Shown piece by piece: positions 1,437 through 59,860 of a DNA stretch of 64,000 bases; the first letter of the stretch is position 1, and the number at the start of each line of letters is the position of its first letter. The notes beneath the pieces are model-generated. The model was not told where the DNA came from, searched no databases, and worked only from the letters and a program-made list of their open reading frames with translations. The stretch is from Loxodes magnus (taxonomy: Eukaryota > Ciliophora > Karyorelictea > Loxodida > Loxodidae): positions 372,001 through 436,000 of the forward strand of contig CAMPDV010000106.1 of the NCBI GenBank assembly GCA_946699065.1, in the 5' to 3' direction. The position numbers and the translations under genes are program-made.

Positions 1437-2413
1437 AATTAGCAAGCCTCTTATTAAGTTAGCAGCACTTCCTATAATCATTTAAAGATATTAAGCCTTT
1501 ATTGGTACTAATGGTATCTTTCAACCTCGTGTTCACAGGACCAGTTTGATAACCTGGCTGGAACCAGCTCCCTTCAGGACTCTTTCTTCAGTCGCCTTGG
1601 ATTGTATACCACTTCGGTTTGTAGATTTGACCTCCTGACGGATAAAATTAGTTACATAATTCTCGTCTAATCTTATCCTAATATTAGTACTATTATTTTT
1701 CTTATTATTTTCTATTCCAGTACTATTATTCAATTAATTTCAATTTCTAACATTGTCTATATTTATGTCCAGTTTGTTTGCATACAAAACATCTTGGTTT
1801 ATTCCTAATTCATTTCTTATCTGGACTCCTCGGTAAATTAATAGCTCCTTCTTTGTCCATTGGTACTTGAATTGTCTTAACTTTGAATTCCTACTACTGT
1901 TGCTACTTGCTGTTCTCTTCAAGCACAGTTGTTCTCTGCTGCAGCAATCCCATTTCCCTGAAGAAAGTGTTTTGCTCTCGATCGTAGACTTCCCAGAAGC
2001 TTTCTTTCCATTCCTTGAGCTCAGTAACTTGATTTTTTAGAGCTCTATTCTCTAATCGTAGCCTCTTTACTTCCTCCTTCAAGTCAGAGAATGCGACTAA
2101 AATTTATGCCTGTTCTTCCTGAAACTATAGCATCGCAAACTCTCGCACGGCTGCTGCTTCTTGCGTCTCCAGTACCTTTCTAGGTCCTTCCTCTTCAGTT
2201 GGTGTCATCGAGGTAGCTTTTTGGCGCTTTTGTCCCATCTTTTAGGTTGGCCTAGAAGTTCCTAGTTGAGTCTATTATTCTTGAAGGTTTTGAGAAGAAG
2301 ATTATTTCTAGGAAGAAGACGTGTTAGTTAGAGATGAGGGTTCTTACTTTCTCTCCCCTTTTTAGGAGGTGGTATAAAAGCCTTTCTTGAACCCTTCTAC
2401 CATTTTATTTTGT
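1437..2413 (-). mobile_element. Zinc-knuckle retroposon copy 1 (gag/ORF1-like)
   Basis: Reads on the minus strand from the conserved 5' head near 2400 (ATGGTAGAAGG followed by AAAGGCTTTTATACCACCTC), through a coiled-coil region, to a clear C-x2-C-x4-H-x4-C knuckle (CFVCKQTGHKYRQC) near 1770. The conserved 3' end is at about 1522; a further 70 bp precede the flanking repeat. Same subfamily as the copies at 14.5 and 52.1 kb. No polymerase is attached. Looks like a broken non-LTR-type copy; family assignment (LINE ORF1-like or another gag) is inference. Confidence 0.7.
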
Positions 2414-2428
2414 CTTACTAGTGTTTAT
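2414..2428. repeat. Target-site duplication, right copy (15 bp)
   Basis: Second copy of CTTACTAGTGTTTAT, directly upstream of the element's 5' head. Confidence 0.7.
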
Positions 2429-2439
2429 TTACGAAAAAA

Positions 2440-3200
2440 ATCCATTGAAAAACTCTGTTACATTAATCAATTAACTATTACAGCCTCTATATAGAGCAGG
2501 AAAGAATTATTAAGTCAACTATCCAAGCCCTGTATACAAAGTTCATGTTATGCAAATTGATTCCTGATTGAGTTTTTCTTTCCTACAAATACCTTATTAT
2601 TGTATCATATCAAAGAAGTGAGATCAAAGGACTATGAGAACTCCATTGAAAACTCTATTATTGAAATAAAAACAACGAGCCATTTATCCATCAATGAGAA
2701 AAGACGAATTCAGATTTTAAAATAGAAAGACTCAAGTGTTAGAATCAATTCCAGAGGAACCTTTAATCTCCTTATATATTGAAAAAAAAAGTTTACTCTT
2801 AAAACTATCAAACATTTTCTCTACATCAATAAGATTGGTAAGTATCTTTGCTTATCATCTCCAATCAGTTTAATATAAATCAATTATCTACCACATTACT
2901 CTGATTTAATGTGCCGTTTGTTTTTTTTTGAGAAAAACGAATGGGTTGAATGAATAAGGTTTTTCATCCAAATTTTGAAAGTTTTCAAAGTTAAAACCTT
3001 GTCGCAGGTTTTGATTTTTGTATTACTGAGTGAAATTGATCTTCAATTTTTCATCTCTTTTGCTACTTTTCTTGAATATAAGAACAATGATAGAGGTATT
3101 TAATTCCTCTGGAATTCTTTAAAGTCTTAGCCTGATATTGTTAAAGCAGAAATAATTAATATTAAAGAGTATTAAATAGCTTCTTGTAGAGATTTAAAAA
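2440..3200 (-). mobile_element. Decayed L1-like LINE reverse transcriptase fragment
   Basis: Three RT palm blocks appear in order on the minus strand. NWRSISLSNTKIK (about 3010-3050) matches the NYRPISLLN-type block. IDVEKMFDSF (about 2806-2836) matches motif A. FLIDGQMARCF with a following FNN..NG (about 2650-2705) matches the block before and at motif B. Spacing is about 70 and 43 residues, as in L1 RTs. The first block is in a different frame from the other two, so at least one frameshift exists. The FADD motif C is not visible before the zinc-knuckle insertion. The endonuclease domain was not recognised upstream. A dead LINE is the best reading; the complementary strand is also open but has no family match. 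Confidence 0.65.
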
Positions 3201-3359
3201 ATCATAATGATTATATAAATGAGGCTTTTAAATAAAGTAGGAATATATGTTTTGCTTATAAATTAATTAATTTAAAAGTTAAGAATTTTAATGAAAAGAA
3301 ATACACTAACATTTTATTTAATTTGTCTGAATCTTTTGATTAAAAATAATAGATATAGC

Positions 3360-4675: not shown

Positions 4676-5470
4676 ATGGAACAAAGCCTTTCTCGACTAA
4701 AAGGCTTCTCGTAGCTCCTTAGATCAATCTTTCCAGCTCTAACTAACTCCAACAAAGACAAAAAAGAAATAATATTGTAACATCTCAGAAGAAAAATAAT
4801 TTACTTCCAAGATTTTTAAAAAAAAAGTTACACCTTCGAACAACTTATGAACTTAGATAAAAAGTCTCTTGTTTAAATCATTTTTGATTACATTGATAAG
4901 GTAGAGAACCTCGAACATTACGTCATGAGTTTACAATAAGACTTATAAGATCATGTCGAGGACGAGAGACCGCATAATGAATTTGTGACCAAAGAGGACA
5001 TTAACAACAGATATTAAGAAATAGAATGCGATATAGTAAGAATTGATGAATAAATGGGAACAGATTTCTTAAAGTATGAAAACGCATTTTAATAAATAAC
5101 GGACATAAAAAAGAGATTAGGAAAATTAGAGGAATAAGACCTAAAAAGAAATAATGATCCAATGGTAATAGAAGAATAACCTATGACGACAGAAAAATTT
5201 TTCAAGGAAAAATGTTATATATGCGACAGTTTATTCCACTTATGAAAAAAGTGTAGGAGGAATTGGTAAATAAGAAAAAATATTTGGAAAGAACTTACAA
5301 ATTTTTATTCTTCCTCGGATGATTAGCTTTGAGAAAAAAGATAACTCCAAGACCATTCGGAAAGCTCGGAAGTGAACTTGGGCGGAGACACCGGCGAGTC
5401 CGAGACCCTGTAAAAGGTAATGCAGGGGTTATGGACCTATTAAGGAAACATTCCATTATCCATAAAATGT
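4676..5470 (+). CDS. Zinc-knuckle gag/ORF1-like protein, copy 2, looks whole
   Basis: From the ATG at 4676 one frame stays open (TAA/TAG=Q, TGA=W). It begins MEQSLSRLKGF, passes through a predicted coiled coil (blocks FEQLMNLDKKSL, DYIDKVENLE and MSLQQDLQ around residues 60-100), and reaches a perfect zinc knuckle CYICDSLFHLWKKC near 5217-5260, then a polar tail. The knuckle suggests nucleic-acid binding. The stop is uncertain; coding-like composition fades near 5470. No polymerase follows. It is the most intact-looking member of the family in the window and is related to the worn copy at 60.2-61.0 kb (shared IRKNIWKELTNFY-like block after the knuckle). Whether it is a mobile element protein or a domesticated gene cannot be told from one copy. 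Confidence 0.55.
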
Positions 5471-6659: not shown

Positions 6660-7015
6660 ATTATTATCAAAGAGGATAATTAAAAATAAAAAAGAAATGT
6701 TTCTGCTGTGGAAGCGTATGATATCTTTATCGGAAGTGTTATAAATTTAAATAGAAATAAAGAAATTATTGTATAAAAGAGCAAAAAAAGAAGAAAAAAG
6801 AAGAAGCAAGATAGAAAAGAATGAATAGAATGTATTGTAACCCAGATGGTTCAATATACAAGATCAAGGTGGAACCAAGGCAAGTTAAAGGAGGGAAAAC
6901 CTGGAGAAACCCGAGTTCCCAATCTCGCTAAAATTGGGCGACCCAAACTTTTATATTTAACAGCAGGGAGCATGAACTGCTGTCCTCTTGGAGTTAAAAA
7001 TGCCTAAAACGAAAA
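6660..7015 (+). mobile_element. Zinc-knuckle retroposon 3' portion, copy 4
   Basis: Holds the degenerate knuckle region near 6690-6740 and the family's conserved 3' end (GGAGGGAAAACCTGGAGAAA, then CCTAAAACG at about 7002). The 5' half is absent because the inverted-repeat boundary falls here; the partner at 58.94-59.86 kb is longer. Same subfamily as the copies at 21.1 and 45.5 kb. Confidence 0.6.
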
Positions 7016-7019
7016 ACAT

Positions 7020-7486
7020 AAATTAATAGTATTATATATATAATGGTTGCATTATTACCATAGCTACATAATAAAATATAAGTACTAAAATAGTTAATAT
7101 GTTTAATATAGCATATCTGTTCTATCTAAATGGAAATAATCAACAATTAAAATTGTAAAATGATTGTATGGTAAAATATTGAGATTGAATAAACCAAAAA
7201 TTAAAATATTAGCAAAGAATTCTTTATCTAAAGAAGCTAGATTTAAGTTATAAGAAACTTGTTATTTTAAAAGATAAATAAATGAAAGTTAGACTTTATA
7301 ATTAAATATTGCAAGCTAATAAGGTTAGGAAAATATCTATAAACTATCAAATCTTAACACCAAACCTAGCTTTTAAAATTCTTTTATATAGTTAAATTAA
7401 TTTGTTGGCTACTTATCTATCTGTATTCTAAGTCTTGCTTATAAAGACAAATATTTATTCAAAGTTTGGCTATAAAACTATAATCT
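7020..7486. other. AT-rich spacer inside the left arm
   Basis: Duplicated in the right arm at about 58.46-58.93 kb. No domain, RNA or coding signal recognised. Confidence 0.4.
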
Positions 7487-7500
7487 TAAATACACTGCTA
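7487..7500. repeat. Target-site duplication, left copy (14 bp)
   Basis: TAAATACACTGCTA, repeated at 8994-9007 after the element's (TAA)n tail. The right arm keeps the same pair at 57447-57460 and 58444-58457. Confidence 0.75.
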
Positions 7501-8495
7501 AAGTATAATACAAATATAAAATGGTGGAAGGTTTCAAGAAAGGCTTCTATACCACCTCTTCCTAAGCCAAAAAGGAAGGGAGGAAGCAGGAAACCACTTC
7601 TTGGCAGTCGTCTTCTTCACAACTTTAGCCTTTTTCTTAATATTAACAACCATAACAACCTGGAATTTAACAAGAGGAACAGAAGAAAGCTCAGAAAAGC
7701 AAGCATACTGAAACACTGACTTCACTAGAGAAGCCTAGAAAGCAGGTAAAGTCTGCTTTACACCAGGAGGTGTCGGAATTTAATCATTCTGGCCAGATTA
7801 GCATGGAACAGCTCATCAAAGTGGTACTAAACCTCCAGGAAAAAGTCAAGAGACTAAAGAAGGACAAAGACAGGCTAACGGAGAATCTGAACAAGCAAGA
7901 GGAAATCGAATCAAGACTTATGTCTTAAGAAAGGGAATTAAGTGCATTTTAGAACATATCACAGAGTCAGAACTTCTAATCCTAAAATTAGCAATAGAAA
8001 TAGACGGAGCTGGGCAACAAGCTTGGAGAAATAGAAGAGAAGCTGCAACAGCAAATGAAATTTAATGAGTAAAGAGGTGATCCAATGATGATAGAGGTAA
8101 TTAACAAGAAGAAGAAGGCTAAGCCAATCAAAGTAGTTAAAAGGTGCTACTATTGTAATTCAGAGAAACATCTATGAAGAAGATGTGAATAATTCCTAAA
8201 CTTTAAGAACCAGTATTGGAGAAAATAGATGAAACAGCAAGCGTAGCAAAAGAAAATGAGACAATTATAACAAAGGAAAATTAGAGAGAGACTATTCATG
8301 AATTAGCTTGGAAATATTTATAGGAAGAAACCTTTGCTGAACGGAAGACATAGTTAGAGACAACAAGAACAAATGGGTGGGAGAGGAGTAGAGACCTATA
8401 AACCTTTTTTTAATCCCGGAACAATCTGGGATCGGCATGAAGAAGTGAAAATCCTCAAAAATTGTAAAACTTAACTATTTAAAAAAAAATTTTTT

Positions 8496-8973
8496 GATTA
8501 TAGGGTACGTAGCACTCTCATTGGTGCGCAGCTCTTTAAAAAAAATGTTTCATACTTACAAGAATGTTTGTTACTGATAAAATTATCAGATACTGGTAGA
8601 CTTTGTTCAATACTGGTATAATTATTCAGTACTGATAAAAATGTTCAATACTAATATAATTTAAGAATACTCGTAATCTTTAATACTTGTTGGAGGTTCA
8701 AGGACATGGCAGGATTGTGTCTCATTGCATCACCAAAGCAGAGGACGACATGTGTCAATTATGGGTACTTAAATTGCCCACCTTTGATGAAAACTCGCAA
8801 TATTATTTCTTTTTCGTTCCAGAATTAAAACTAAACTAAGCCAGAGTCGAAGGTCTAAGAATCTTATGTCTCGAGGCCAAACCAAAGCAAAGGAAGACAT
8901 AAAGTCGATTATGGGTACTTAACTTCCCCGACCTCTGATGAAGATGATCTTGTTGCTAACCTTCGAACAACTA
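8496..8973 (+). repeat. 480-bp interspersed repeat, copy in the left arm
   Basis: Nearly identical in layout to 43533-44014. Order: head GATTATAGGGTACGTAGC..GCGCAGCTC, an A-rich run, a short tandem array (8572-8688), then two related 60-bp boxes containing ATTATGGGTACTTAA, and the end CCTTCGAACAACTA. The right-arm element lacks this block and reads straight through from body to tail, so this is an insertion here or a clean deletion there. Confidence 0.7.
8572..8688 (+). repeat. Short tandem repeat, about 6 units of 16-21 bp
   Basis: Degenerate units each starting TACTGGTA/TACTGATA/TACTAATA, lying inside the 480-bp repeat. The same array is at 43610-43727. Confidence 0.6.
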
Positions 8974-8993
8974 TATAATAATAATAATAATAA

Positions 8994-9007
8994 TAAATAC
9001 ACTGCTA
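8994..9007. repeat. Target-site duplication, right copy (14 bp)
   Basis: Second TAAATACACTGCTA, following the (TAA)n tail. Confidence 0.75.
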
Positions 9008-9009
9008 GG

Positions 9010-9395
9010 TTTTCTTAGCAATAAATTTGTAAGCATAAATTTTAAATATTTATCTCATAATTTATAATTTTGAATATTGATTTATCATTTAAAAAAGTAT
9101 CAACACTTAATATTTTAGATTTTAAATCAATGCATAAATTTCGGTATTTAGACAATAAATAAGCTTTTAATATCTTAATATCTTATTTAAATAAAGCAAA
9201 GGTCTAATTTATCTTAGAAGCAACAATATAAACTATATAACTGTTTCCCAGTATTTTATTTTTAAATAAATAAGCTTTTTATCTAATTTAGTTACCAATA
9301 AATTATATTTAATTTAAGTTTAATTTATTCTTTTATTAATAAAACAAATCATTTATTGAACTAGTATTTAAAGCCACATTTATAGTTATATTATA
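9010..9395. other. AT-rich upstream region of kinase copy A
   Basis: No coding signal. The last 60 bp (ACTAGTATTTAAAGCCACAT onward) are shared by all three kinase copies, so some of it may be promoter or 5' UTR; no defined element is visible. Confidence 0.3.
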
Positions 9396-11051
9396 ATGAA
9401 GTCTCAACTGCCTTTTACAATTAAAAACTATAAATGTGTCAAATTAGTTGGAGAGGGCTCATTTGCTTAAGTCTTTGAAGCATATAAAGAAGGTAGTGTA
9501 ACGAAATTAGCAGTTAAAAGATTGAGTAATAAAAAAATTACCGAATAAAAAGTAAAAAAAGAGATAAATATATTAAATAAATTCTGAAAGTCCTAACATG
9601 TTATCACTCTATTCGATTTCATCGTAACAAAAAGCAATTTCTATATAGTAACTGAGTTTGTAGAAGGAGGAAGTTTGAAGTAATATATCAGATAAAATGG
9701 AAAAATTCCTATGCTGACAGCTTAGAATTTGTTTAGGTAAATTATTCTAGGTATATAAGAAATCCATTAAAAAGAAATAATTCATAGAGGTTTAAAACCT
9801 GACAATATCTTACTTACTTCTGGAAATCCTTCAGAGGCCATCTTAAAAATAGCTGATTTCGGTTTAGCAAATTTTATAAAGTAGTCTTATTCAATAGTAG
9901 GAAGTCCAATTTATAGTGCTCCTGAAATATTCAATAAAATGCTTGGAAGTTAATCTTTTTCGTGTGATATATGAAGCGCTGGAACTATTTTATATGAAAT
10001 GATAACAGGAAATTATGCATTTCCAGCTACTTCTTTGACAGAACTCTTTATTATGCAGTAGAGAGGATTCTAGCATTTGTAATGGCCTGCTGATGCTTAT
10101 ATTTCGAACGAATGTAAAGACCTTCTAGAGAAAATTTTAAAATATGAACCAAAATAAAGACTAACAATCTAAGAAATTCTAGAGCATCCTTTTATTTAAT
10201 CTCAACCATAGGAATAAAATTTAGAAGAAATAGATTATTCCTTAATATACGAAGAGATAAAACAAATCAACGAAGAAGCTAATTAATCTATTGAGGAATA
10301 CTAAAAACTAAAAAATTCCTTTAACACTCAAAATTAAATTTCAGACCAAGACTAATAAAAAATACTAAATTAAGGTTAACTTTAAATCAGTAATTTTTTA
10401 GAAAGTTCAGATAGTAAGTTGAATCCAAATGTGGAATTAGCTTTCCTATTTGCTAACTAAAAAAAGATTCAAACAGTAGTTTAAAAATATAAAAACCTAA
10501 AATAAAACATTTTCGATGAAGATATTTTTTAGATTGAAAAGAATCGCTAAAGTGAATTAAATTAAGTATTGGATGAAAATAAAGACTTAAGAGAAAGCAT
10601 TTCATATTAGATTGAAAAAGTGAAGTTAATAAGTTTCAAATACTAGTAAAGTGAATTTAATGAAGAGTAAAGCATCAGCATGTTGAACTCAAGTTAATCT
10701 ATATGAGAATCTTCTATATGATTAAACGAATTCGAGAATGTTCTTAAAGTGAATTAATTAGTTAATATTTGAGGTTAGAGTAATGATAAATTAAGTAGTT
10801 CAAATGAAGATTCTTAAAATACTTTAATCTAGATAAAGGAAAATTCATAATATAAAAAGGAAGAATATATCAAAGAGTCTAATGCAGAATTCTCTTATAA
10901 TCTTGAATAAATGTCATAAGAGAAAGATCTATAAAGCAAACATAAACTTTAAATTTATACAATTATTAAAAAATAATAATATCTCTTATATTTATTAGCA
11001 TCTATTATTCAAGAAATAAAGGCTATATTGCTGGATATCTTAAAGCTTTGA
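9396..11051 (+). CDS. Atg1/ULK-like Ser/Thr protein kinase, copy A (catalytic Asp replaced)
   Basis: A 551-codon frame read with TAA/TAG=Q and TGA=W. The kinase domain occupies about residues 10-270: Gly loop VGEGSFAQVFEA, VAIK-type Lys in KLAVKR, catalytic loop HRGLKPDN, DFG in ADFGLANF, activation end GSPIYSAPE, subdomain IX DIWSAGTILYEM with W as TGA, and HPF at the end. The GSP.Y.APE pattern resembles Atg1/ULK kinases; that family call is inference. The catalytic loop has HRG where copies B and C have HRD, a GAT to GGT change that should abolish or strongly cut phosphotransfer. A Q/N/S/E-rich tail with short coils follows. The TGA stop at 11049 aligns with copy B's stop, and coding similarity ends there. 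Confidence 0.88.
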
Positions 11052-11339
11052 TTTAATTAAGTTTAATAAAAATAATATTTATTAAGGTTAATTAAAATTA
11101 ATTTAGTTAGATATTATACAAAAACATTAATTTAAATAAGTTTAATTTATAAGGATTTAAATTTTAAGACTTATAAATTAAACAGAAGAGATATAGCAAT
11201 AACTTACTTTATTTAAACTTAATTATAATAAAAAAATGGCACCTAAAAAATAAAATATTTCCAAACTAGACCAATAAAATATAAAAATTAAATATAAATT
11301 TATCTTTAACATCTATAAAACGAAAATCTTAAACTCTAA
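11052..11339. other. AT-rich region after kinase copy A
   Basis: Shared with the right arm. Contains ATGGCACC at about 11236, from which an open frame runs, but no domain is recognisable before the gag-like sequence that follows. Confidence 0.3.
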
Positions 11340-11773
11340 CTGGTAGATAAGAACTTTCAAACAAAGTATGTGTTCTAATTTAGCAAATTGATTAAATGAA
11401 ACAGAAAAGCAATTAATTAAAATAAGATATTGTAAGTAGACCTTCTTATTATCAAATATACTCATTAAGCCAGCAGACTGAATAAAAATTACAAAGAATA
11501 AATTATGAAAAGAATCAGGAAATACAAAATAAGATAAACTATTATTCCATGAATGTAGAGAAGAGAGAGAAGAAATAAATTAAGTATTAATTTTACATAA
11601 AATCGACCGATAATAAGGTTCTGAAACTGCAAGAAGCAAGGTTACAAGGTAAGAAAATGTTGGAAATTTTAGGAAAAAGAAAAACAGAAGAACAAAAGGC
11701 ATGAATAAAATATTTATAGAATATACTGCACAAAAGAAGCAAAATTATATAGAAGAAAAGGACAATAAATCAT
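11340..11773 (+). mobile_element. Zinc-knuckle retroposon fragment, copy 6
   Basis: A basic region with a degenerate knuckle (NCKKQGYKVRKC) near 11615-11655, closest to the copy at 6.0-6.5 kb. Duplicated in the right arm at about 54.69-55.12 kb. Broken; ends are not defined. Confidence 0.4.
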
Positions 11774-12076
11774 TCAAGCAATACCTCAAATACTAATAGA
11801 AGTAAGAGAATGGAGTAAAAGACAATACAGATTTTATGTAGGAAAGCTTATGAAGGTATCCTCAGTGGAAACAGGGAAAGCGAGAAATAATACAAGTCTA
11901 CTCCAAAGAAGATTTCTGATAAGAAAAAAACTTATACAAACTCTAATTTTGTGATAACCAAATAAAGGTAAAGTAACTTTAATAAATGATGTTATGTTAT
12001 TATTTATCATATTTGGAAAAATAAATATTTGAGATATTTTAAATAGCTTTAATAACATAACTAGTTCATAAATCAT
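11774..12076. repeat. 303-bp segment present only in the left arm
   Basis: ATAAATCAT is found at 11765-11773 and again at 12068-12076. The right arm has a single ATAAATCAT with nothing between (near 54680). Either a 303-bp insertion with a 9-bp duplication or a deletion between short repeats in the right arm. The segment itself is A-rich with no recognised domain. Confidence 0.6.
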
Positions 12077-12606
12077 AAAATTTTCCTTTGTCTTTAAATG
12101 TCTAAAAATAAATAAATAAAGTTGAAATAGAAGCGTTAACATTTTAATGTTAGAACTTTAAAGATTTAAGAGTAACTCAATGTCAAATAAAGATTATAAA
12201 TTTTATTATAATATTAGTTATGATATTTTTAAAGATTTATATCAAATTGATAAATGCTTTAATTTTAATTTTAGAAAATGAAATAATTATAAAATTTATT
12301 ATTAAAATTACTACCTATCATATGAAATTGATTAAATAAAAAACTATATTAATAATTTCAATTATTAAGTAAGCTTTTAAAATGCCAGATAAAAATTAAG
12401 ATTTAATATTTTATTTATTTAAGAACTAAAGATTATGGACTTCCAGAATTCATTAAGTACAGTACATAGTTCCTCACAAGTAGTTATTTTTAAAGATTGA
12501 TCTTCTTAGACTAATATGTTGGTAATGCCAAGCCACCATTGACTCTACAATTCAAAAAAGATATATCAAACTATTTTTGCAAGATATATTTATTATATGT
12601 AAGTTT
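12077..12606. other. AT-rich tract shared by both arms
   Basis: Pairs with about 54.15-54.68 kb. No coding, RNA or motif signal that I can support. Confidence 0.35.
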
Positions 12607-13380
12607 ATACTATTTCTGATCCCAGCTGCTCTTTATAGGATATTGGTTCTTTTATTATTTTAAAATATTGTAGAGTTACTCAGCTTGCTATTGAAAATGT
12701 TTCTATTTTTGTCATATTTAATGTAAATAATTTTATTTTCTTATAGATTCAGATTTATTAATAAAACTTGCTTTATTTTTATCTTTATATGATGACGTAA
12801 ATAATATGATTTTAATTATTTTGGCTTATTTCCTAACTTTGTTTGTTAATTTTTGGATATTTTGGTATGGATATTTTCCTAAAATATAGTTTGCAATATG
12901 ATTTGATGATAAAGTTGGTCTTTTAATAAGATCTAATAGATGAGGGAAATTGTTTGAATATATTGATTTACTAAATATTTGAATTAAAATATATAATATT
13001 AAGAGCATGTTTGATTTGTTATTTGTATTGAATTGAATATTTGTATATTTTTAGTTTCTTAAAAGACTTAATAAGATTATTAGTATACTTAATGTTTGGT
13101 TAAATAAATAATTGTTAATGATAAATTTCTATTATAATTATAAAATAGTTTCTTAAACTTAAACAACGCTTTAAGATATTTCTAAATTTGATTGGTTTAA
13201 ACTTATTTTTTATATTATCATATATTATAATGTTTTAATGTAGCTAAATTATTCTATGGCTACAAACTTAATTGAAGTTTAATTTTAAATTTTATTTAAA
13301 TTAGCATTTATCTTAATGAATAATTTTAATTTTCTTTTTATTATAAATATCTTAAGAATCTAATTCTAAACTATTTTCAG
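12607..13380. repeat. About 770-bp segment present only in the left arm
   Basis: In the right arm TATTATATGTAAGTTT joins directly to TATGCTTTCC (near 54150). In the left arm the two are separated by about 770 bp. AGTTT is repeated at both junctions, compatible with a 5-bp target duplication. No terminal inverted repeats and no domain are visible. Confidence 0.55.
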
Positions 13381-13654
13381 TTTTATGCTTTCCATTAAAA
13401 AGCTGTTTTTGCAGGTATTTATAAATAGATTAAACTTTAGTCTTGTTTTTCATTAATCTGTCAATAATTTATCTATACGCTATTTAGATATATTAAAATT
13501 TTAAGCAGAACCCTTAAGATAATTTATTTACTAAACATTTTATTTCAAATTAAGTTATATTGGAAATAAATATTTTCTCTTAATTAAAAATTCCAAATAT
13601 CAATATAGATCTTTACACTATATTTTTATTAACCTTTTTAATTAAAAATTAGTT
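13381..13654. other. AT-rich upstream region of the 202-codon gene
   Basis: Shared by the two arms. No promoter element recognised. Confidence 0.3.
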
Positions 13655-14263
13655 ATGAGAATTGAACCTAGAGCAAAGTATTTATTTTTCAATAGTAATA
13701 TTCTTTTTTATTTATAGTTTAAAATTATATTTCTTTAGACATTTTTATAGGTATCAATATTATATTTTTCTATTTAAGTAGCTTTAGATCAATTTAATAT
13801 CTTTTCTATTATCTTACAGATTCTTATTATCAAAACAAAATCCCAACTTAACTCACAGACAGTGGCTAAATATTATTACAATACCCTTAATCAATTCTTC
13901 TCTAAAACTTAAGTATTTAACAAGAAAATTAATCACTTAGTTTCTAAATAAAGCCACTCAGAAACCTTCAAGTTTAATCTCAGTATGACTTTAGTAAAAT
14001 AAGAAAACCAAAACTTTAACAATTAATTAAGTAAACATAATTATACGAAAGAGCTTAATATGCTTAATCATCAGATTAAAACATAAGTCTATTTCTAAGA
14101 TCACACAAACTTTATTCTTTAAAAAACTTCTCACATAACCATCCCTGGGAGAAAATCCAGAATTATAGTCACCATTGCCAATAAAAATTTAAATGCTCAA
14201 TTTCCAAAAACTCTGACATTTCATAAGATTTTGCTATCTTTTCTAAATAGTGCAAAAAACTGA
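13655..14263 (+). CDS. Hypothetical protein, 202 codons, left-arm copy
   Basis: Starts MRIEPRAKYLFF and runs in one frame to a TGA at 14261; the right-arm copy (53270-53878, minus) has the same length. The first 60 residues are strongly hydrophobic (FKIIFL, ILYFSI, IIL blocks), possibly one or two membrane helices; the rest is polar and N/K/Q-rich, ending FHKILLSFLNSAKN. I do not recognise the family. Sequence after this TGA is also coding-like in another frame (KLYVTPEDIIYLL, to a TAA-TGA at about 14337), so the true 3' end could lie there if a short intron exists. Equal length in two arms that differ elsewhere supports a real gene. Confidence 0.5.
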
Positions 14264-14498
14264 AAATTAGAATCTCTGAAGAAAAACAGGTAAACTGTAT
14301 GTTACTCCTGAAGATATTATTTATTTACTAAAATAATGAATGAAATTATTAAATTAATAAAGTTGAAGAATCTAACAACAGCGGCATTAATAAATTATTT
14401 GGCAATAATTTGAATTTCAACTTAATACCTAAAATGAAGACAAGAGAAAAGAGCACCGCTAGATATTTTTAATTTAACATAAAAATTAAGATGAACTG

Positions 14499-14512
14499 TA
14501 AATTTTTCTGTT
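14499..14512. repeat. Target-site duplication, left copy (14 bp)
   Basis: TAAATTTTTCTGTT, repeated at 15459-15472. The right arm keeps the same pair in reverse complement at 52074-52087 and 53021-53034. Confidence 0.75.
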
Positions 14513-15458
14513 TAAGAAAAAATGGTAGAAGGATTAAAGAAAGGCTTTTATACCACCTCCTAAAAAGGGGAGAGAAAGTAAGAACCCTCATCTCTAACTC
14601 ACACATCTTCTTCCTAGAAATAATCTTCTTTTCAAAACCTTCAAGAATAATAGACTCAACTAGGAACTTCCAGGCCAACCTAAAAGATGGGACAAAAGCG
14701 CCAAAAGGCTACCCCGATGACACTAACTGAAGAGGAAGGACCTAGAAAGGTACTGGAGACGCAAGAAGCACCAGCCGTGCGAGAGTTTGCGATGCCACAG
14801 TTCCAGGAAGAACAGGCATAAATTTTAGTTGCATTCTCTGACCTGAAGGAGGAAGTAAAGAGGCTACGATTAGAGAATAGAGCTCTAAAAAATCAAGTTA
14901 CTGAGCTCGAGGAATGGAAAGAAAGCTTCTGGGAAGTCTACGATCGTAGAGCAAAACACTTTCTTCAGGGAAATGGGATTGCTGCAGCAGAGAACAACTG
15001 TGCTTGAAGAGAACAGCAAGTAGCAACAGTAGTAGGAATTAAAAGTTAGGAAAATTCAAGATCCAATGGACATAGAAGGAGCTACTAATTTACCGAGGAG
15101 TCCAGACAAGAAATGAATTAAGAATAAACCAAGATGTTTTGTATGCAAACAAACTGGACATAAATATAGACAATGTTAGAAATTGAAATTAATTAAATAA
15201 TAGTACTGGAATAGAAAATAATAAGAAAAATAATAGTACTAATATTAGGATAAGATTAGACGAGAATCATGTAACTAATTTTATCCGTCAGGAGGTCAAA
15301 TCTACAAACCGAAGTGGTACACAATCCAAGGCGATTGAAGAAAGAGTTCTGAAGGGAGCTGGTTCCAGCCAGGTTATCAAACTGGTCCTGTTAACACGAG
15401 GTTGAAAGTCCTCCAAGTTCACTAAACTCCAATTTAAACTTTTTAATTTAGTAATATA
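14513..15458 (+). mobile_element. Zinc-knuckle retroposon copy 7
   Basis: Begins a few bases before ATGGTAGAAGGATTAAAG, shows a long charged coiled coil (LKEEVKRLRLENRAL, near 14840-14885) and a perfect knuckle CFVCKQTGHKYRQC near 15132-15173, and ends about 60 bp after GAGGTTGAAAG. A 14-bp direct repeat flanks it. Same subfamily as copies at 1.4 and 52.1 kb. GC content is visibly higher than in the surrounding DNA. No polymerase. Broken, with few changes. Confidence 0.78.
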
Positions 15459-15472
15459 TAAATTTTTCTGTT
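15459..15472. repeat. Target-site duplication, right copy (14 bp)
   Basis: Second TAAATTTTTCTGTT. Confidence 0.75.
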
Positions 15473-15709
15473 AGGGAAATAACTTCAATAACATTAAGCA
15501 TATATTCAGTGACGAATCTAATTTAAGGTGGTATCAATATATTTATTATTACTATTACTTTTTTTATAATTCTATAAATCTATTTAAATAAGATTTTTCA
15601 ATAAAAACAAAGATAACTAAAAATATTGGAAATATTTTAGAATTTATTCTTCCAAAATAAAAGATAAAGTAACTTTGATATTGATACTTCTCAACATATA
15701 AAGCACTGC

Positions 15710-16840
15710 TATGGCTTCGATAACTTAGAAGATAAGATATCTAGAAAATTTGAAGAGGATCAACAAGATTGTTAATGAATTGAAATATAGTCTACAAAAA
15801 AAATTATACAGAATATTCTTAGTAAGATGAAGGGGAGTAGTAGCAATATAATTAAGAAAATGATCGAAATTCCATCCTTGATTAAAAAGGACGGCCAGAA
15901 TTGGTTTAAAATCCATGAAAAGCAAACAATTCTTGACTTTTTGTTGATAAATAAATTCGATTATAGAGCGTGTAGCACTCTCGTTGGTGCGCAGCTCTTT
16001 AAATTAATTTTATTTAATGTACAAAATTAAAATTTTATGGATCTCTCTATCCTTGTTTTCTCTTCCTGCAGTACGTCTCTGTAAATTTTCCTTCCAAAGC
16101 ATAGGATGCAATATGCGATTGCGGGTACATCTTTCCCCGATCTATGATGAAGAGGTTTTCTCCTGACATTCAGAGTTCTCCAGCTTGTCGAATCTTTTTT
16201 CTCTTGTTATTGGTTTCTATTTCTCCGATTTATCCTCCGTCCGCGCTCATTTTTATGTTATTAAGACAAGAACACGACCTAGCTAAAGGATTTATCGGTG
16301 GAACAAGAATAAAAAATTAAACTCCTAAAAGAATCAAGAATGGATAAATGAATACTGGATCTATCCCAATGATCGTCGAATCATAAGTTGTACCTCAAAT
16401 GAGACTAATTCCGATCAGGCAGATATGCTTCTGCTGCGGAAGCAAACAACATCTATATCGGAAGTTCCAATAGAAACAATGGGATCTCTGATAAGCAAAG
16501 CGATAAGAAAAAATCAGACTAAACAAGATTTTCTGCAATAAGAATGAAAATATGTACAAGAGGAAGAAGACGGAACTATAACCAAGACCTGACAGGAATG
16601 TAGGACGGAAAACCTACTAAAAAACTCACGGATGGGAACGCATAATCTTCCTTTTGCTTCGAACATTTTAACAAACAGCGAGGAGCTTGAAGCGCTGTAC
16701 TCTGACAGAATGAAATTCCCTAATAATGGAGAAACATTTATATATAATATAACCTTTTATAAAATAATTTATTAAAAGAGTTACATCCCATAAAGGAGCT
16801 ACGCACTCTAAAATCTAAGTTATTTATATTATTACAAATT
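15710..16840 (+). mobile_element. Zinc-knuckle retroposon copy 8
   Basis: Starts at ATGGCTTCG (15711). Its N-terminal region reads IPSLIKKDGQNWFKIHEK and runs into the recurring head, which in this frame is DYRACSTLVGAQLFK (from 15960). One 60-bp box with GATTGCGGGTACATC lies near 16096-16152, and a degenerate knuckle (CFCCGSKQHLYRK) near 16427-16470. Near 16812-16835 there is a partial inverted copy of the head (GCTACGCACTCTAAAATC). The right-arm partner is 50.70-51.85 kb. Broken. Confidence 0.6.
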
Positions 16841-17099
16841 TGTAGTGATTAACTTTTTTTTAAATTTATATTAATAGAATATAAATTTTTAATTGAAAGC
16901 CATTTAATATTTTGGAGATTTTCAGATTAAAAAATTATTGCGTTAATTAACTTAAAATGCTATTTTAAATTTAATTAAAAAAATATATATAATATCTAAT
17001 AATTATCTTTTAAAGCTAAATATTTAATAAATTCATTAATTTAATAATTTAAATTTTAGCAAAAATATTTTAATAAAGAATATTATAAATTAAAATTTA

Positions 17100-17950: not shown

Positions 17951-17954
17951 TTAT

Positions 17955-20508: not shown

Positions 20509-20509
20509 T

Positions 20510-22335: not shown

Positions 22336-23973
<1,638 letters not shown>

Positions 23974-23974
23974 C

Positions 23975-43530: not shown

Positions 43531-43532
43531 TT

Positions 43533-44014: not shown

Positions 44015-44219
44015 ATGGCGGTTTTAAAAAAATATATATTAATAATTAAAGATTACTCTAAGTAACTATTTTAACTAAATCTTAGTATTCTGATAAATTA
44101 ATTTTAATATTAAGAAAAAATTTGTAAGCTTAATGTAAAAAATAAATAAAAGTTTATTTCTTTAGCTTTATCATATTACTTATTTAAAATATAAATACAA
44201 AATTAAATGTGTGAAGTTC

Positions 44220-45050
44220 TTGGAGATATTTCAACTTCTTTCCCTTCAATCTCTAGATTGCTTTAGAGGCTAAATAAAAAATTGAATATCTCTTCAACTC
44301 TTCTCGTTGCTATGTTTATGATTCTTGAATTATTTTTTCACTTAGATATTGCTTTGTCATTTTTTATTTCAAAATTTTTCTAATTTAACCAATATAATTT
44401 TTCTCTTTCTCTTTTAGTAACTGATTTTGTCTCTTCTTTTTGTTCTCTTACTTTTATTAGTAATTTCAGTACTCTCATTTGAAGATTCGAAATTTCACGC
44501 GTTTTTTCTATATATATATGAGAGTTAAATTAATAATATCTTATGTTTCTCGTTTAGATTTAAATCTTGAGTTTTTTCTACTTAATTTATCATTTTTCAT
44601 TACCTTGCTCTCTTAGTTACATTTAGTTCTTTTATTTTTTTATTTTTTTTCTATCTTATATCCAATTTTTTGCTTTTATTGCTAGCTTTATATTGACTGA
44701 TCTGGCCTTACGAAATATTTCAGAAAGTATTATGATTTTTCTTATGTTTAAAGTCTTGATTCAATTTTCTCTGTAATTTAAAGTTTTCCTTTAACTTCTT
44801 ATAGTCTTTCTTCAACTTTTTGATCTCTTCCTTGAGATCCAGGACCACTTTAATCAGGTAATCATAATTTATTTACTTTTTTATTGTAAAATATGAGATT
44901 TTCGAATATATATATTTTTTGGCTTATTTTCTATTTTTCTCTTTGGAGATGGTAGATTCAATTTGGTGGGAAGCCTTTTTGGAATTCTTTTCTTGAAAAT
45001 AGCTTCTCTATGTCTTTATTAACTCTTGTTTTTTTGGAGCCGCGAAAAAT
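44220..45050 (-). mobile_element. Worn zinc-knuckle retroposon, coiled-coil portion
   Basis: The minus strand carries LIKVVLDLKEEIKKLKKD near 44810-44865, the module seen in the copies at 7.5, 45.5 and 59.5 kb. A-rich, degenerate sequence follows and no clear knuckle remains. Old and broken. Confidence 0.45.
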
Positions 45051-45469
45051 TCTTATTGACTACTTACATCTTTTTTACCTACTAATAGCTGTTTACTTAA
45101 ATGTCTAAAACTAAAGATGATCTAATTAGAGTAAATATATATTTAAATTGTACTCATATGAAGAAATTGATGTAATCAAAAGTGATAAGCATTTTCTTTA
45201 AGAAACCAGTTGCTTAGATTCATAAGATTATCAATTTCAGATAAAATGGTCTTAAATATTCAGTTTCCTAGTAATTAACATTTTCCCAGATATTTGAATT
45301 TTTTTCATTTTGACAATATTTAAATTATGGAAAGGAAAAATGGTCTATATATTGAGCCTGTTAAATAAAATATTTCTTTAATTTAAGTTGATAACGCAAA
45401 TATAATCTTATCTAAAAGAAAATTTTACTATATTAAAATATTTAAAAAGGCTTATTTAACTTCTAAATA

Positions 45470-46399
45470 CAGGCTTCTATACCACCTCTTCCTAAGCGAA
45501 AAAGGAAGGGAGGAAGCAAGAAACCAAGTCTTAATAATCTTAACAATCTTCTCTATCTCAACCTTAACCAACACTGAACTAATAACTTGGAATCTAACAA
45601 AACGAACGAAAGCCAACCTTGAAGAATATACACAAGGAAACTCCAACCTCAAGTGAAAAACCGAGGAAACAGTTGAAGTCTGTTCTCCACCAGGAGGTAT
45701 CAGAGTTCAACTCTTCTAGCCAGATGATCATGGTTTAGCTCATCAAAGTAGTACTGAACCTCCAGAAGAGCTCAAGAGATTGAAGAAGGACAATGATATG
45801 CTGAGGGCAAAACTAGACCTAACAGAAGGAATTGAGTCAAGACTTATGTCCTAGGAAAGAGATCTTAACGCCTTTTTGGAATATCTCACAAAGTCAGACT
45901 AACGAATCCTAAAATTAGCTTTAAAAGCAGACTGAACTGGATAACAGACTCGGAAAAGTAGAAGAGAAATTGTAAACTTTTAAGAAAGATTAAAGCGAAA
46001 CTGGAGCTATACAAATGGAAATCGAAGCCTAGAAAGAGCAAACAAATAAAGGAAAATAATTAAAAATAAAAAAGAAATATTTCTGCTGTGGAAGCATATG
46101 ACATTTTTATCGGAAGTGCTAGAAATTCTAATAGAAATAAAGAAACTATTGGATATAAATACAATAAAAGAAGAAAAAAGAAGAAGCAAGAATGTATTGC
46201 AACCCGGATGGTTCAATATACAAGATCAAGATGGAGCCAAGGAAAGTTAAAGGAGGGAAAACCTGGAGAAACCTGAGTTCCGATCTCGCTAAAATTGGAC
46301 GTCCCAAACATTTATTTTAACAGCAGGGAGCATGAACTGGTGTCCTCCTGACGGGGTTGGAAATCCCTAAAACGGAAAACTTAAAATTAATATTATTAT
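45470..46399 (+). mobile_element. Zinc-knuckle retroposon copy 10 (partner of copy 9)
   Basis: Head GGCTTCTATACCACCTC at the start, coiled-coil module near 45745-45800, degenerate knuckle near 46085-46130, and 3' end CCTAAAACGG. Flanked by ATTTAACTTCTAAATA (45454) and ATTTAGCTTCTAAATA (46400). Broken. Confidence 0.7.
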
Positions 46400-46415
46400 A
46401 TTTAGCTTCTAAATA

Positions 46416-50699: not shown

Positions 50700-51850
50700 A
50701 TTTGTAATAATATAAATAACTTAGATTTAAAGTGCGTAGCTACTTTATGGGATGTAACGCTTTTAATAAATTATTTTATAAAAGGTTATATTATATATAA
50801 ATGTTTCTCCATTATTAGGGAATTTCATTCTGTCAGAGAACAGCGCTTCAAGCTCCTCGCTGTTTGTTAAAATTTTCGGAGCAAAAGGAAGATTATGTGT
50901 TTCCATCCGTGAGTTTTTTAGTAGGTTTTCCGTCCTATATTCCTGTCAGGCCTTGGTTACAGTTCCGTCTTCTTCCTCTTGTACATACTTTCATTCTTAT
51001 TGCAGAAAATCTTGTTTAGTCTGATTTTTTCTTATCGCTTTGCTTATCAAAGATCCCGTTGTTTCTATTGGAACTTCCGATATAGATGTTGCTGGCTTCT
51101 GCAGCAGAAGCATATCTGACGAAATTAGTCTCATTTGAGGTACATAGGATTCGACGATCATTGGGATAGATCCAGTATTCATTTATTCCATTCTTGATTC
51201 TTTTAGGAGTTTAATTTTTTATTCTTGTTCCACCGATAAATCCTTTAGCTAGGTCGTGTTCTTGTCTTAATAACTAAAAAATGAGCGCGGACGGAGGATA
51301 AATCGGAGAAATAGAAACCAATAACAAGAGAAAAAAGATTCGACAAGCAGGAGAACTCTGAATGTCAGGAGAAAACCTCTTCATCATAGATCGGGGAAAG
51401 ATGTACCCGCAATCACATATTGCATCCTATGCTTTGGAAGGAAAATTTACAGAGACATACTGCAGGAAGAGAAAACAAGGATAGAGAGATTCATAAAATT
51501 TTATTTTTGTACATTAAATAAAATTAATTTAAAGAGCTGCGCACCAACGAGAGTGCTACACGCTCTATAATCGAATTTATTTATCAACAAAAAGTCAAGA
51601 ATTGTTTGCTTTTCATGGATTTTAAACCAATTCTGGCCGTCCTTTTTTATCAAGGATGGAATTTCGATCATTTTCTTAATTATATTGCTACTACTCCCCT
51701 TCATCTTACTAAGAATATTCTGTATAATTTTTTTTGTAGATTATATTGCAATTCATTAACAATCTTGTTAATCCTCTTCAAATTTTCTAGATATCTTATC
51801 TTCTAAGTTATCGAAGACATAGCAGTGCTTTATTATATGTTGAGAAGTAT
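50700..51850 (-). mobile_element. Zinc-knuckle retroposon copy 11 (partner of copy 8)
   Basis: Contains the mirrored head (GCTACACGCTCTATAATC at about 51559-51576), the N-terminal IPSLIKKDGQNWFK region near 51600-51670 and the degenerate knuckle near 51080-51120. A partial opposite head copy (GATTTAAAGTGCGTAGC) is at about 50725. Broken. Confidence 0.6.
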
Positions 51851-52087
51851 TGAAATATCAAAGTTACTTTATCTTTTATTTTGGAAGAATAAATTCTAAA
51901 ATATTTCCAATATTTTTAGTTATCTTTGTTTTTATTGAAAAATCTTATTTAAATAGATTTATAGAATTATAAAAAAGTAATAGTAATAATAAATATATTG
52001 ATACCACCTTAAATTAGATTCGTCACTGAATATATGCTTAATGTTATTGAAGATTATTTCCCTAACAGAAAAATTTATATATTACTA

Positions 52088-53020
52088 AATTAAAAAGTTT
52101 AAATTGGAGTTTAGTGAATTTGGAGGACTTTCAACCTCGTCTTAACAGGACCAGTTTGATAACCTGGCTGGAACCAGCTCTCTTCAGAACTCTTTCTTCA
52201 GTCACCTTGGATTGTGTACCACTTCGGTTTGTAGATTTGACCTCCTGACGGATAAAATTAATTAAGAATTCTCGTCTAATCTTATCCTAATATTAGTACT
52301 ATTATTTTTCTTATTATTTTCTATTCCAGTACTATTATTTAATTAATTTCAATTTCTAGCATTGTCTATATTTATGTCCAGTTTATTTGCATACAAAACA
52401 TCTTGGTTTATTCTTAATTCATTTCTTGTCTGACTCCTCGGTAAATTAGTAGCTCCTTCTATGTCCATTGGATCTTGAATTTTCCTAACTTTTAATTCCT
52501 ACTACTGTTGCTACTTGCTGTTCTCTTCAAGCACAGTTGTTCTCTGCTGCAGCAATCCCATTTCCCTGAAGAAAGTGTTTTGCTCTCGATCGTAGACTTC
52601 CCAGAAGCTTTCTTTCCATTCCTTGAGCTCAGTAACTTGATTTTTTAGAGCTCTATTCTCTAATCGTAGCCTCTTTACTTCCTCCTTCAGGTCAGAGAAT
52701 GCAACTAAAATTTATGCCTGTTCTTCCTGGAACTGTGGCATCGCAAACTCTCGCACGGCTGCTGCTTCTTGCGTCTCCAGTACCTTTCTAGGTCCTTCCT
52801 CTTCAGTTGGTGTCATCGGGGTAGCCTTTTGGCGCTTTTGCCCCATCTTTTAGGTTGGCCTGGAAGTTCTATGTTGAGTCTATTATTCTTGAAGGTTTTG
52901 AAAAGAAGATTATTTCTAGGAAGAAGACGTGTTAGTTAGAGATAAGGGTTCTTACTTTCTCTCCCCTTTTTAGGAGGTGGTATAAAAGCCTTTCTTTAAT
53001 CCTTCTACCATTTTTTCTTA
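52088..53020 (-). mobile_element. Zinc-knuckle retroposon copy 12 (partner of copy 7)
   Basis: Mirror of 14513-15458, between AACAGAAAAATTTA repeats at 52074-52087 and 53021-53034. Long coiled coil and a perfect C-x2-C-x4-H-x4-C block near 52350-52400. Broken, with few changes. Confidence 0.75.
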
Positions 53021-57058: not shown

Positions 57059-57059
57059 T

Positions 57060-57446
57060 ATAATATAACTATAAATGTGGCTTTAAATACTAGTTCAATA
57101 AATGATTTGTTTTATTAATAAAAGAATAAATTAAACTTAAATTAAATATAATTTATTGGTAACTAAATTAGATAAAAAGCTTATCTATTTAAAAATAAAA
57201 TACTGGGAAACAGTTATATAGTTTATATTGTTGCTTCTAAGATAAATTAAACCTTAACTTTATTTAAATAAGATATTAATATATTAAAAACTTATTTATT
57301 GTCTAAATAATGAAATTTATGCATTGATTTAAAATCTAAAATATTAAGTGTTGGTACTTTTTTAAATGATAAATCAATATTCAAAATTATAAATTATGAG
57401 ATAAATATTTAAAATTTATGCTTACAAATTTATTGCTAAGAAAACC
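57060..57446. other. AT-rich upstream region of kinase copy C
   Basis: Mirror of 9010-9395; no defined element. Confidence 0.3.
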
Positions 57447-57460
57447 TAGCAGTGTATTTA

Positions 57461-58443
57461 TTATTATTATTATATATAGTAAGTTTGACAATTTTCGAGG
57501 ATTTTCACCTCTTCATGCCGATTCCAGATTGTTCCGGGATTAAAAAAAGGTTTGTAGGTCTCTACTCCTCTCCCACCCATTTGTTCTTGTTGTCTCTAAC
57601 TATGTCTTCCGTTCAGCAAAGGTTTCTTCCTATAAATATTTCCAAGCTAATTCATGAATAGTCTCTCTCTAATTTTCCTTTGTTATAGTTGTCTCATTTT
57701 CTTTTGCTACGCTTGCTGTTTCATCTATTTTCTCCAATACTGGTTCTTAAAGTTTAGGAATTATTCACATCTTCTTCATAGATGTTTCTCTGAATTACAA
57801 TAGTAGCACCTTTTAACTACTTTGATTGACTTAGCCTTCTTCTTGTTTTCAATTACCTCTATCATCATTGGATCATCTTTTTACTCATTAAGTTTCATTT
57901 GCTACTGCAGCTTCTCTTCTATTTCTCCAAGCTTGTTGCCCAGCTCCGTCTATTTCTATTGCTAATTTTAGGATTAGCAGTTCTGACTCTGTGATATGTT
58001 CCAAAAGGGACTTAATTCCCTTTCTTAAGACATAAGTCTTGATTCGATTTCCTCTTGCTTGTTCAGATTCTCCATTAGCCTGTCTTTGTCCTTCTTTAGT
58101 CTCTTGACCTTTTCCTGGAGGTTTAGTACAACTTGGATGAGCTATTCCATGCTCATCTGGCCAGAATGATTAAATTCCGACACCTCCTGGTGTAAAGCAG
58201 ACTTTACCTGCTTTCTAGGCTTCTCTAGTGAAGTCAGTGTTTCAGTATGCTTGCTTTTCTGAGCCTTCTTCTGTTCCTCTTGTTAAATTCCAGGTTGTTA
58301 ATATTAAGAAAAAGGCTAAAGTTGTGAAGAAGACGACTGCCAAGAAGTGGTTTCCTGCTTCCTCCCTTCCTTTTTGGCTTAGGAAGAGGTGGTATAGAAG
58401 CCTTTCTTGAAACCTTCCACCATTTTATATTTGTATTATACTT
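57461..58443 (-). mobile_element. Zinc-knuckle retroposon copy 14 (partner of copy 5, without the nested repeat)
   Basis: Mirror of copy 5 between TAGCAGTGTATTTA repeats at 57447-57460 and 58444-58457. It keeps the TTA/TAT tail next to the first repeat, the knuckle near 57770-57820 and the head near 58385-58430, but lacks the 480-bp repeat. Broken. Confidence 0.75.
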
Positions 58444-58939
58444 TAGCAGTGTATTTAAGATTATAGTTTTATAGCCAAACTTTGAATAAATATTTATCTT
58501 TATGAGCAAGACTTAGAATACAGATAGATAAGTAGCCAACAAATTAATTTAACTATATAAAAGAATTTTAAAAGCTAGGTTTGGTGTTAAGATTTGATAG
58601 TTTATAGATCTTTTCCTAACCTTATTAGCTTGCAATATTTAATTATAAAGTCTAACTTTCATTTATTTATCTTTTAAAATAACAAGTTTCTTATAACTTA
58701 AATCTAGCTTCTTTAGATAAAGAATTCTTTGCTAATATTTTAATTTTTGGTTTATTCAATCTCAATATTTTACCATACAATCATTTTACAATTTTAATTG
58801 TTGATTATTTCCATTTAGATAGAACAGATATGCTATATTAAACATATTAACTATTTTAGTACTTATATTTTATTATGTAGCTATGGTAATAATGCAACCA
58901 TTATATATATAATAATATTAATTTATGTTTTTCGTTTTA

Positions 58940-59860
58940 GGCATTTTTAACTCCTCCAAGAGGATGCTCCCTGCTGTTAAAATAAATGTTTGGGACGTCC
59001 AATTTTAGCGAGATCGGAGTTCGGGTTTCTCCAGGTTTTCCCTCCTTTAACTTTCCTTGGCTCCATCTTGATCTTGTATATTGAACCATCCGGGTTACAA
59101 TACATTATTTTCATTCTTGCTTCTTCTTTTTTCTTCTTTTTTTGCTCTTTTATCCAAAAGTTTCTTTATTTCTATTTAAATTTATAACACTTCCGATAAA
59201 GATGTCATACGCTTCCTCAGCAGAAACATTTCTTTTTGATTTTTAATTATCCTCTTTGATATGTTTGCTCTTTTTAGGCTTCGAATTCCATTCTTATTGC
59301 TCAGTTTCGCATTGCTCTTTCTTAAATGTTTACAATTTCTCTTCTATTTTTCCGAGTCTTTTATCCAGTTCAATCTGTTTCTGAAGCTAATTTTAGGATT
59401 AGCTATTCTAACTTTGTGATATGTTTCAAAAGGCGCTTAGCTCTCTTTCCTAGGACATGAGTCTTGATTCTATTCCTTCTGCTAGGTTAAGTTGCTACAT
59501 TGGCTTCTCAATGTCCTTCCTTAGCTTTTTAACCTCTTCCAGGAGGTTTAGTACAACTTTAATGAGCTGCTCATGCTCATCTGGCCAGAAGGGTTAATTC
59601 TGAGCTTTCCAGGTGCAAAGCAGATTTCGCCTGTTTTCTAGGTTTCTCCTTCGACGTTGGAGTAGGCACATGAGTGCTTTTCTGAGTCTATTTCCGTTCT
59701 TCGTAGTTCTATTAAATTCCAGGTTACTAAGATTATTAAAAATAGGGTTAAGGTTATGTTTAAGAAGACTTTCCGAGATTTGCTTCTGGTTTCCTCTCCT
59801 TCTTGAAGGAAGTGGTATAGAAACCTTTTTTTAAAGCTTCGATTTTTTTAATTAATGCAA
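58940..59860 (-). mobile_element. Zinc-knuckle retroposon copy 15, extends beyond the arm boundary
   Basis: Has the family 3' end (CCTAAAACG near 58940), a degenerate knuckle near 59200-59235, the coiled-coil module EQLIKVVLNLLEEVKKLRKD near 59515-59575, and a diverged head GGTTTCTATACCACTTCC near 59830. Only the part below 59262 is shared with the left arm. Broken. Confidence 0.65.

Follow-up and report, generated by a model that had tools for sequence, protein, structure and literature searches.

A 64,000-nucleotide stretch of the ciliate Loxodes magnus (contig CAMPDV010000106.1; C106:372001-436000), referred to here as the window, contains multiple copies of a short element whose protein carries a CCHC zinc knuckle, and which is called the zinc-knuckle (ZK) element throughout. 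Frames in the window open only when TAA and TAG are read as glutamine (TAR = Q) and TGA as tryptophan; the macronuclear assembly is reported as 706 Mbp under NCBI table 27 (PMC11441545), and our genome searches covered 705,730,643 bases in 7843 contigs. Protein comparison (E ≤ 1e-4) locates 14 ZK-homologous loci in the window, several of which are fragments lacking a head or a knuckle. Comparison of the window with itself reveals an inverted duplication of ~15 kb, in which 6665-22114 (arm A) matches 59261-45430 (arm B) at 95-99% identity across a 23 kb spacer. Because the duplication repeats several of the loci, only about ten are independent. A previous reading of the same DNA, made without database searches (the sequence-only reading), had counted at least 15 copies in several subfamilies; the subfamilies are upheld, whereas the count is too high.

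Subfamily I is represented by a minus-strand element at 1437-2413, which retains an open frame (MVEGFKKGFYTTS...CFVCKQTGHKYRQC, ATG at 2403) and is flanked by a 15-bp target-site duplication (TSD), CTTACTAGTGTTTAT, at 1422-1436 and 2414-2428, and by a frameshifted plus-strand element at 14513-15458 (14-bp TSD, 14499-14512 and 15459-15472). The plus-strand subfamily II element at 7501-8993 ends in a (TAA)n tail and has a 14-bp TSD (7487-7500 and 8994-9007). It was later split by a nested minus-strand insertion at 8487-8970, missing from arm B. This insertion resembles a short interspersed nuclear element (SINE) and carries the 3′ tail of LINE A, a long interspersed nuclear element (LINE) discussed below. 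Subfamily III is represented at 21147-22077 (minus strand) by a frameshifted element whose head is ~20 nt short and whose 16-nt TSD is imperfect (15 of 16 positions), and a divergent coding region of subfamily IV, CYICDSLFHLWKKC, occupies 4676-5461 on the plus strand. Arm B holds copies of the 21147-22077 element at 45451-46404 (plus), of the 14513-15458 element at 52075-53020 (minus), and of the subfamily II element, without its nested insertion, at 57480-58440 (minus, open frame from 58423). A frameshifted, subfamily III-like element lies at 58904-59843 (minus); the ends of these last elements, from 45451 onward, are approximate. The other loci are plus-strand fragments at 6668-6865 (with an arm-B match from 6665 on, descending from 59261) and 16336-16560, the arm-B counterpart of the latter at 50978-51109 (minus), a minus-strand fragment at 44675-45076, and a weak plus-strand match at 60605-60973 (E = 7.5e-5).

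A full ZK copy measures 0.8-1.0 kb. Its 5′ end lies 1-20 nt upstream of the ATG, with the leader AAAAATGG, and its frame, opening with the MVEGFKKGFYTTS seen in the window, begins MVEGFK(K/S)GFYTTS. This head peptide is followed by a Q/S-rich stretch, a long coiled coil, the CCHC knuckle, and a basic tail. The 17-nt head matches the window nine times at ≤3 mismatches, as compared to 0.10 expected, although the match at 1599 is internal to a ZK copy and is not a true head; genome-wide it occurs exactly 1579 times, and its reversed control never. The knuckle pattern C-x2-C-x4-H-x4-C occurs exactly six times in the six frames of the window under TAR = Q and TGA = W, against a simulated mean of 0.01. 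The coiled coil is predicted as a helix at 74-178, the best-modelled part of an otherwise low-confidence structure model (mean predicted local distance difference test score, 57). All three modules had been proposed in the sequence-only reading and are confirmed, the coiled coil at the level of this model.

Insertion was examined through the flanks of the copies. Of the four flanking repeats originally listed for the window, those at 1422/2414 (15 bp), 7487/8994 (14 bp), and 14499/15459 (14 bp) are exact; the one at 21131/22078, given as 16 bp, agrees at 15 of 16 positions, with a longest exact run of 10. When one copy per distinct flank is taken (the flank windows of 9 of the 26 rows being placed by hand), exact repeats of at least 12 nt, and up to 16 nt, flank 20 of 26 insertions at unrelated sites, versus 13 of 1000 mismatched flank pairs. 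Copies L054 and L056, which a tail filter removed, have TSDs of 15 and 14 nt, and the range across ZK copies is 12-18 nt. For three insertions, the flanks were also joined and searched genome-wide for sites without the element. With the joined flanks of 1437-2413, 38 of the 40 scored matches cross the junction at 76-82% identity, and the remaining two are the halves in the window itself. With those of 14513-15458, 35 of 40 scored matches do so at 69-77%; of the five others, four are halves belonging to the two arms in the window and one is a partial match. An empty paralogue of the first site, on contig C7766, has a single target copy with 14 of 15 letters identical; that of the second has a single, diverged copy (10 of 14 letters). 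The two insertions therefore each added the element together with a second copy of the 15- or 14-bp target. The sequences flanking the 1437 element, 1287-1436 and 2429-2578, are part of an abundant repeat, as the 38 copies scored across the junction indicate.

These insertions are numerous and short. When 14513-15458 was used as the query, 40 of 901 candidates were scored; all are 95-100% identical to it, and 39 of the 40 begin no more than 6 nt from its 5′ end. Probes of 36 nt from subfamily I, allowing ≤3 mismatches, find 518 5′ ends and 631 3′ hairpins genome-wide. As to 5′ truncation, this is a ratio of 518 5′ to 631 3′ ends; 39 of the 40 scored matches are approximately full length, but the ranking favors full copies. 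On contigs C1-C22, 10 of 15 exact subfamily I 3′ ends have an exact head on the same strand 826-847 bp upstream, a spacing that leaves no room for a reverse transcriptase (RT) in those ten copies. Six-frame translations of LINE A and of a second family, LINE B, match nothing in the window at E ≤ 1e-6. The proposal that the elements lack a polymerase is supported for the sampled full copies. Neither a long terminal repeat (LTR) nor a terminal inverted repeat was found in the four ZK elements scanned, which have flanking duplications only.

Most sampled copies end in a hairpin followed by a short AT-rich tail of variable length. The 7501 copy does have the (TAA)n tail claimed for it; in other subfamilies the tail is (TA)n, (ATT)n, or TTTAATTTA. 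Two alternative origins can be weighed on these features. The gag proteins of LTR retrotransposons can likewise have CCHC knuckles and coiled coils, as would be expected if ZK elements were gag-only remnants of such elements; this origin, or one from a DNA transposon, is barely credible given that all four elements scanned lack LTRs and terminal inverted repeats, that the TSDs vary from 12 to 18 nt, and that the tails are retroposon-like. If the elements were processed pseudogenes, retrocopied from a family of host zinc-knuckle genes, this would account for the short leaders, which fit the compact mRNAs of L. magnus (reported median 3′ untranslated region, 41 bp; PMC11441545). However, the copies end not in poly(A) but in (TA)n, (TAA)n, or TTTAATTTA, near-identical copies are many (40 of 40 scored of 901, at 95-100%), and the head is also found on a LINE, which makes a host origin very unlikely.

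The ZK frame shows the mark of selection when subfamilies are compared. Differences between subfamily II and copy L007 fall 47/48/99 on the three codon positions (p = 1e-6), and third positions are in excess from the start up to about nt 800 but not beyond it. Other between-subfamily counts are 31/35/59 (p = 0.004), 81/80/119 (p = 0.005), and 81/78/110 (p = 0.03). In contrast, none of the four within-subfamily pairs tested is significant (15/15/14, 10/17/9, 21/15/17, and 6/12/15), although the last of these, L003-L007 (p = 0.15), leans toward third positions. These counts indicate that purifying selection acts on the frame between subfamilies and is not detectable within them, which suggests that source copies need the protein and that inserted copies drift. 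The head, too, probably belongs to the coding frame: differences there are 17/14/35 over nt 0-270, though only 5/4/7, a small excess, in the first 90 nt. The head was also considered as a noncoding promoter, but the counts favor a coding start, and do so clearly only when the first 270 nt are taken together. In subfamily I, an in-frame TGA at codon 272 is probably the stop, because the substitution ratio rises from 0.55 in nt 0-816 to 1.0 downstream (20 aligned rows, two of which are the two arms of one insertion; copy L044, which has no start pattern, was left out). With the stop at codon 272, the TGA at codon 198 would be read as tryptophan.

The 3′ ends of five subfamilies differ in sequence, and a similar two-tier hairpin, followed by AACT, can be drawn in each. 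The outer stems are GTGAAC/GTTCAC, GGCG/CGCC, AGCA/TGCT, GGCA/TGTC, and CTG/CGG, and the inner stem is GAGG/CCTC or GGGG/CCCT. The stems were tabulated by hand, since the MAFFT alignment offset the inner stems of two groups by one column. Four of the five ends fold to the common form in short stretches, and that of subfamily III does so only in a longer stretch; the folding z-scores are modest (-0.2 to -2.35). The evidence for a shared hairpin form, from five sequences, is suggestive. The copy at 1437 departs from this pattern: its hairpin is kept only to GAGGTTGAAAG, and the ~80 nt that follow (1437-1517) bear no relation to the 3′ end of subfamily I.

The head of ZK recurs on LINE A, of which 30 RT loci were examined. 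LINE A is ~5.5 kb long and has a short 5′ leader, a first open reading frame (ORF1) with CCLCKVKGHTDQQC and a CCHC knuckle, an endonuclease (EN), and an RT. It is probably one of rnd-1_family-27 and -19 of the genome paper (PMC11441545). Its protein starts MV-SFKKGFYTTS, and 577 places in the genome lie within three mismatches of its head. In the five LINE A copies with a 5′ end, the head is 75-84% identical to that of ZK across ~44-72 nt at the same position, with differences that fall, by eye, mostly at third codon positions. This common start, together with the CCHC knuckle of LINE A ORF1, is what would be expected if ZK elements were ORF1-only users of LINE A, partly derived from it and moved in trans by its enzyme, as HAL1 elements probably were by L1. 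A chimeric copy, L013 (with L073), points the same way: it is a 5′-truncated LINE A copy that ends in ~250 nt of ZK 3′ end in place of its own last part, as expected if an RT jumped between the two RNAs. The two sequences are joined at a 9-nt identity, GTATTGAAA. Of 107 places within three mismatches, one has the exact junction, and the other 99 of the 100 listed read as ZK by their letters.

The head and L013 initially pointed to LINE A as the donor; it is now disfavored because its insertions showed no TSDs and its tail is different. Exact flanking repeats of 12 nt or more are absent from all nine LINE A insertions compared, where the longest match is 11 nt of TTATTATTATT (L015 and L016 were excluded as duplicates of L012). 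Insertion without a recognizable TSD (L009-L038 and L087-L090) is itself unusual for an element with an APE-type endonuclease. The LINE A 3′ end is a GAGC...GCTC-type hairpin with (TTTA)n in 29 of 30 loci, and beyond the head, BLAST comparison of ZK with LINE A returns only short, weak matches. The last ~60 bp of LINE A recur instead on the separate SINE-like elements, including those at 8487-8970 and 43518-44016. The chimera could also have arisen by DNA recombination rather than by the template switch that its structure fits; it has no clear TSD, and the 8-nt AT-rich match in its flanks is at chance level. Use of the LINE A enzyme is, on balance, an improbable explanation of ZK movement. Three observations concern the LINE A-tailed sequences themselves. 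The arms of the insertion at 8487-8970 overlap by ~14 AT-rich nucleotides, so that a short, imperfect TSD is possible; the copy at 43518-44016 has no clear TSD; and ~880 bp at 15947-16833 are bounded by two inverted LINE A-type tails (15947-16002 and 16767-16833), with the ZK fragment at 16336-16560 inside.

The EN search reveals LINE families besides A and B, one of which could recognize the ZK 3′ hairpin and make TSDs of 12-18 nt; LINE C, the C230 family, or another LINE would be candidates. The similar hairpins, whose outer stems have changed and yet remain paired, suggest a single recognizing enzyme. However, the modest z-scores apply here as well, no such LINE is found among the 3′ ends read, and with 631 hairpins to 518 heads in subfamily I, an abundant relative with the exact 3′ end is unlikely. 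The 1437 copy, which inserted with a different 3′ end, lowered our assessment of this donor from an even chance to somewhat below one. LINE B has no flanking repeat beyond 11 AT-rich nt in three copies, two of which share flanks. The tail of LINE D (L086 and L076/L084) is TTAA-type, and besides the 5′ head, ZK has no match to LINE A, B, C, or D in the portions read.

Taken together, the sampled copies insert with TSDs, contain no polymerase, keep a selected frame, and end in retroposon-like 3′ tails. We therefore consider it quite probable that ZK elements are non-LTR-type retroposons that encode a single gag/ORF1-like protein and are moved in trans. The ZK RNA would be translated, and its protein would package mainly the RNA that encodes it, in cis. 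A LINE endonuclease and RT recruited in trans would then copy this RNA at a nick by target-primed reverse transcription. Packaging in cis would explain the intact frames in source copies. The sequence-only reading had likewise invoked retroposition with a partner's RT; the TSDs, tails, and lack of LTRs agree with retroposition, and they do not single out which RT moves ZK.

Several results weigh against this interpretation. No readable LINE 3′ end (LINE A, A′, B, and D) matches that of ZK, so that mobilization in trans is inferred rather than observed; the searches scored 150 of 3403 RT candidates and 150 of 2075 EN candidates. The lack of 12-nt repeats at the nine LINE A insertions also weighs against it. 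Six of the 26 ZK insertions are also without an exact repeat of 12 nt: the repeats of L040 and L055 are broken by mismatches (copies sharing the L040 flanks have 18 nt), w22078 matches at 15 of 16 positions, and L044, L061, and L002 have none that is clear. The genome search with the joined flanks of 7501-8993 found no empty site. A hidden Markov model search of five ZK proteins returned a Pfam zf-CCHC match for one, below the cut-off (E = 0.078), and none for the other four. Finally, the ~80 nt at 1437-1517 match none of the sequences compared. Because this copy has a 15-nt TSD but another 3′ end, the hairpin may be dispensable, or perhaps two RNAs were joined in copying.

The surrounding sequence contains a pair of protein-kinase-like genes, recognized by eye, at 9334-11219 and 22274-24117, which are 89% identical in DNA and contain in-frame TAA, TAG, and TGA sense codons. 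Short DNA matches to LINE C (L085, 71%) and to L093 of the C230 family (78%) occur elsewhere in the window, at 3020-3173 and 599-680, respectively, and are perhaps LINE fragments. Arm A of the inverted duplication has extra segments at 8487-8970, 11773-12068, and 12606-13379 that arm B lacks.

A polymerase-less element that moves only an ORF1/gag-like protein had been put forward as a possibly undescribed kind, which is too strong, since HAL1 and HeT-A are known examples. HAL1 (half-L1) of mammals is described as a non-autonomous L1 derivative that encodes only the ORF1 protein (ORF1p) and arose several times (PMC5753468), and was probably served by L1 (PMC4161310). HeT-A, at Drosophila telomeres, is described as a non-LTR element with a gag but no pol gene; it is presumed to borrow its Pol from TART or TAHRE, and its gag has signs of negative selection (PMC5537684). 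ZK works like both and fully fits the definition of neither. Like HAL1, it has an ORF1 and no ORF2; unlike HAL1, which is L1-derived, it has only the 5′ head and the knuckle in common with LINE A, and the body, 3′ end, and TSDs differ. Like HeT-A, it has a gag with a CCHC knuckle and no pol, whereas HeT-A joins chromosome ends in head-to-tail arrays and the sampled ZK copies are interstitial, 0.8-1.0 kb long, flanked by 12-18 nt TSDs, and divided into several subfamilies. SINEs with LINE-derived tails are likewise short, polymerase-less, and retroposed, but they are noncoding, whereas ZK has a selected frame; the window's SINE-like elements, with their LINE A tail, form a family apart from ZK. 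LINE A itself shares with ZK the 5′ start (MV..FKKGFYTTS), the short leader, and the ORF1 CCHC knuckle, and differs in having EN and RT, another ORF1 body, another 3′ hairpin, a (TTTA)n tail, and no 12-nt TSD in nine of nine insertions. What is new is that a head is common to ZK and to the 5.5 kb LINE A despite the different 3′ end and the absence of TSDs at the nine LINE A insertions. In the main text of the genome paper (PMC11441545), the words non-autonomous, SINE, zinc, CCHC, and ORF1 are absent; its supplement may list the families.

These comparisons allow a more detailed, if doubtful, proposal, which we advance only as a possibility. ZK may be a long-lived, diversified lineage that shares just a start cassette with LINE A, rather than a set of recent deletion products, with each subfamily keeping a selected packaging protein and a paired, rewritten 3′ hairpin. 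The donor endonuclease would leave long TSDs, unlike that of LINE A, or the ZK protein would alter how a borrowed enzyme resolves insertion. Polymerase-less elements that keep a protein of their own are few and hard to explain, as a parasite of a parasite should lose the gene. Selection on the frame between subfamilies, with none detected after insertion, implies that the protein must benefit its own coding RNA. Hundreds of copies, empty sites, and LINEs in the same genome make the long-standing question of what purpose ORF1p serves directly testable in L. magnus.

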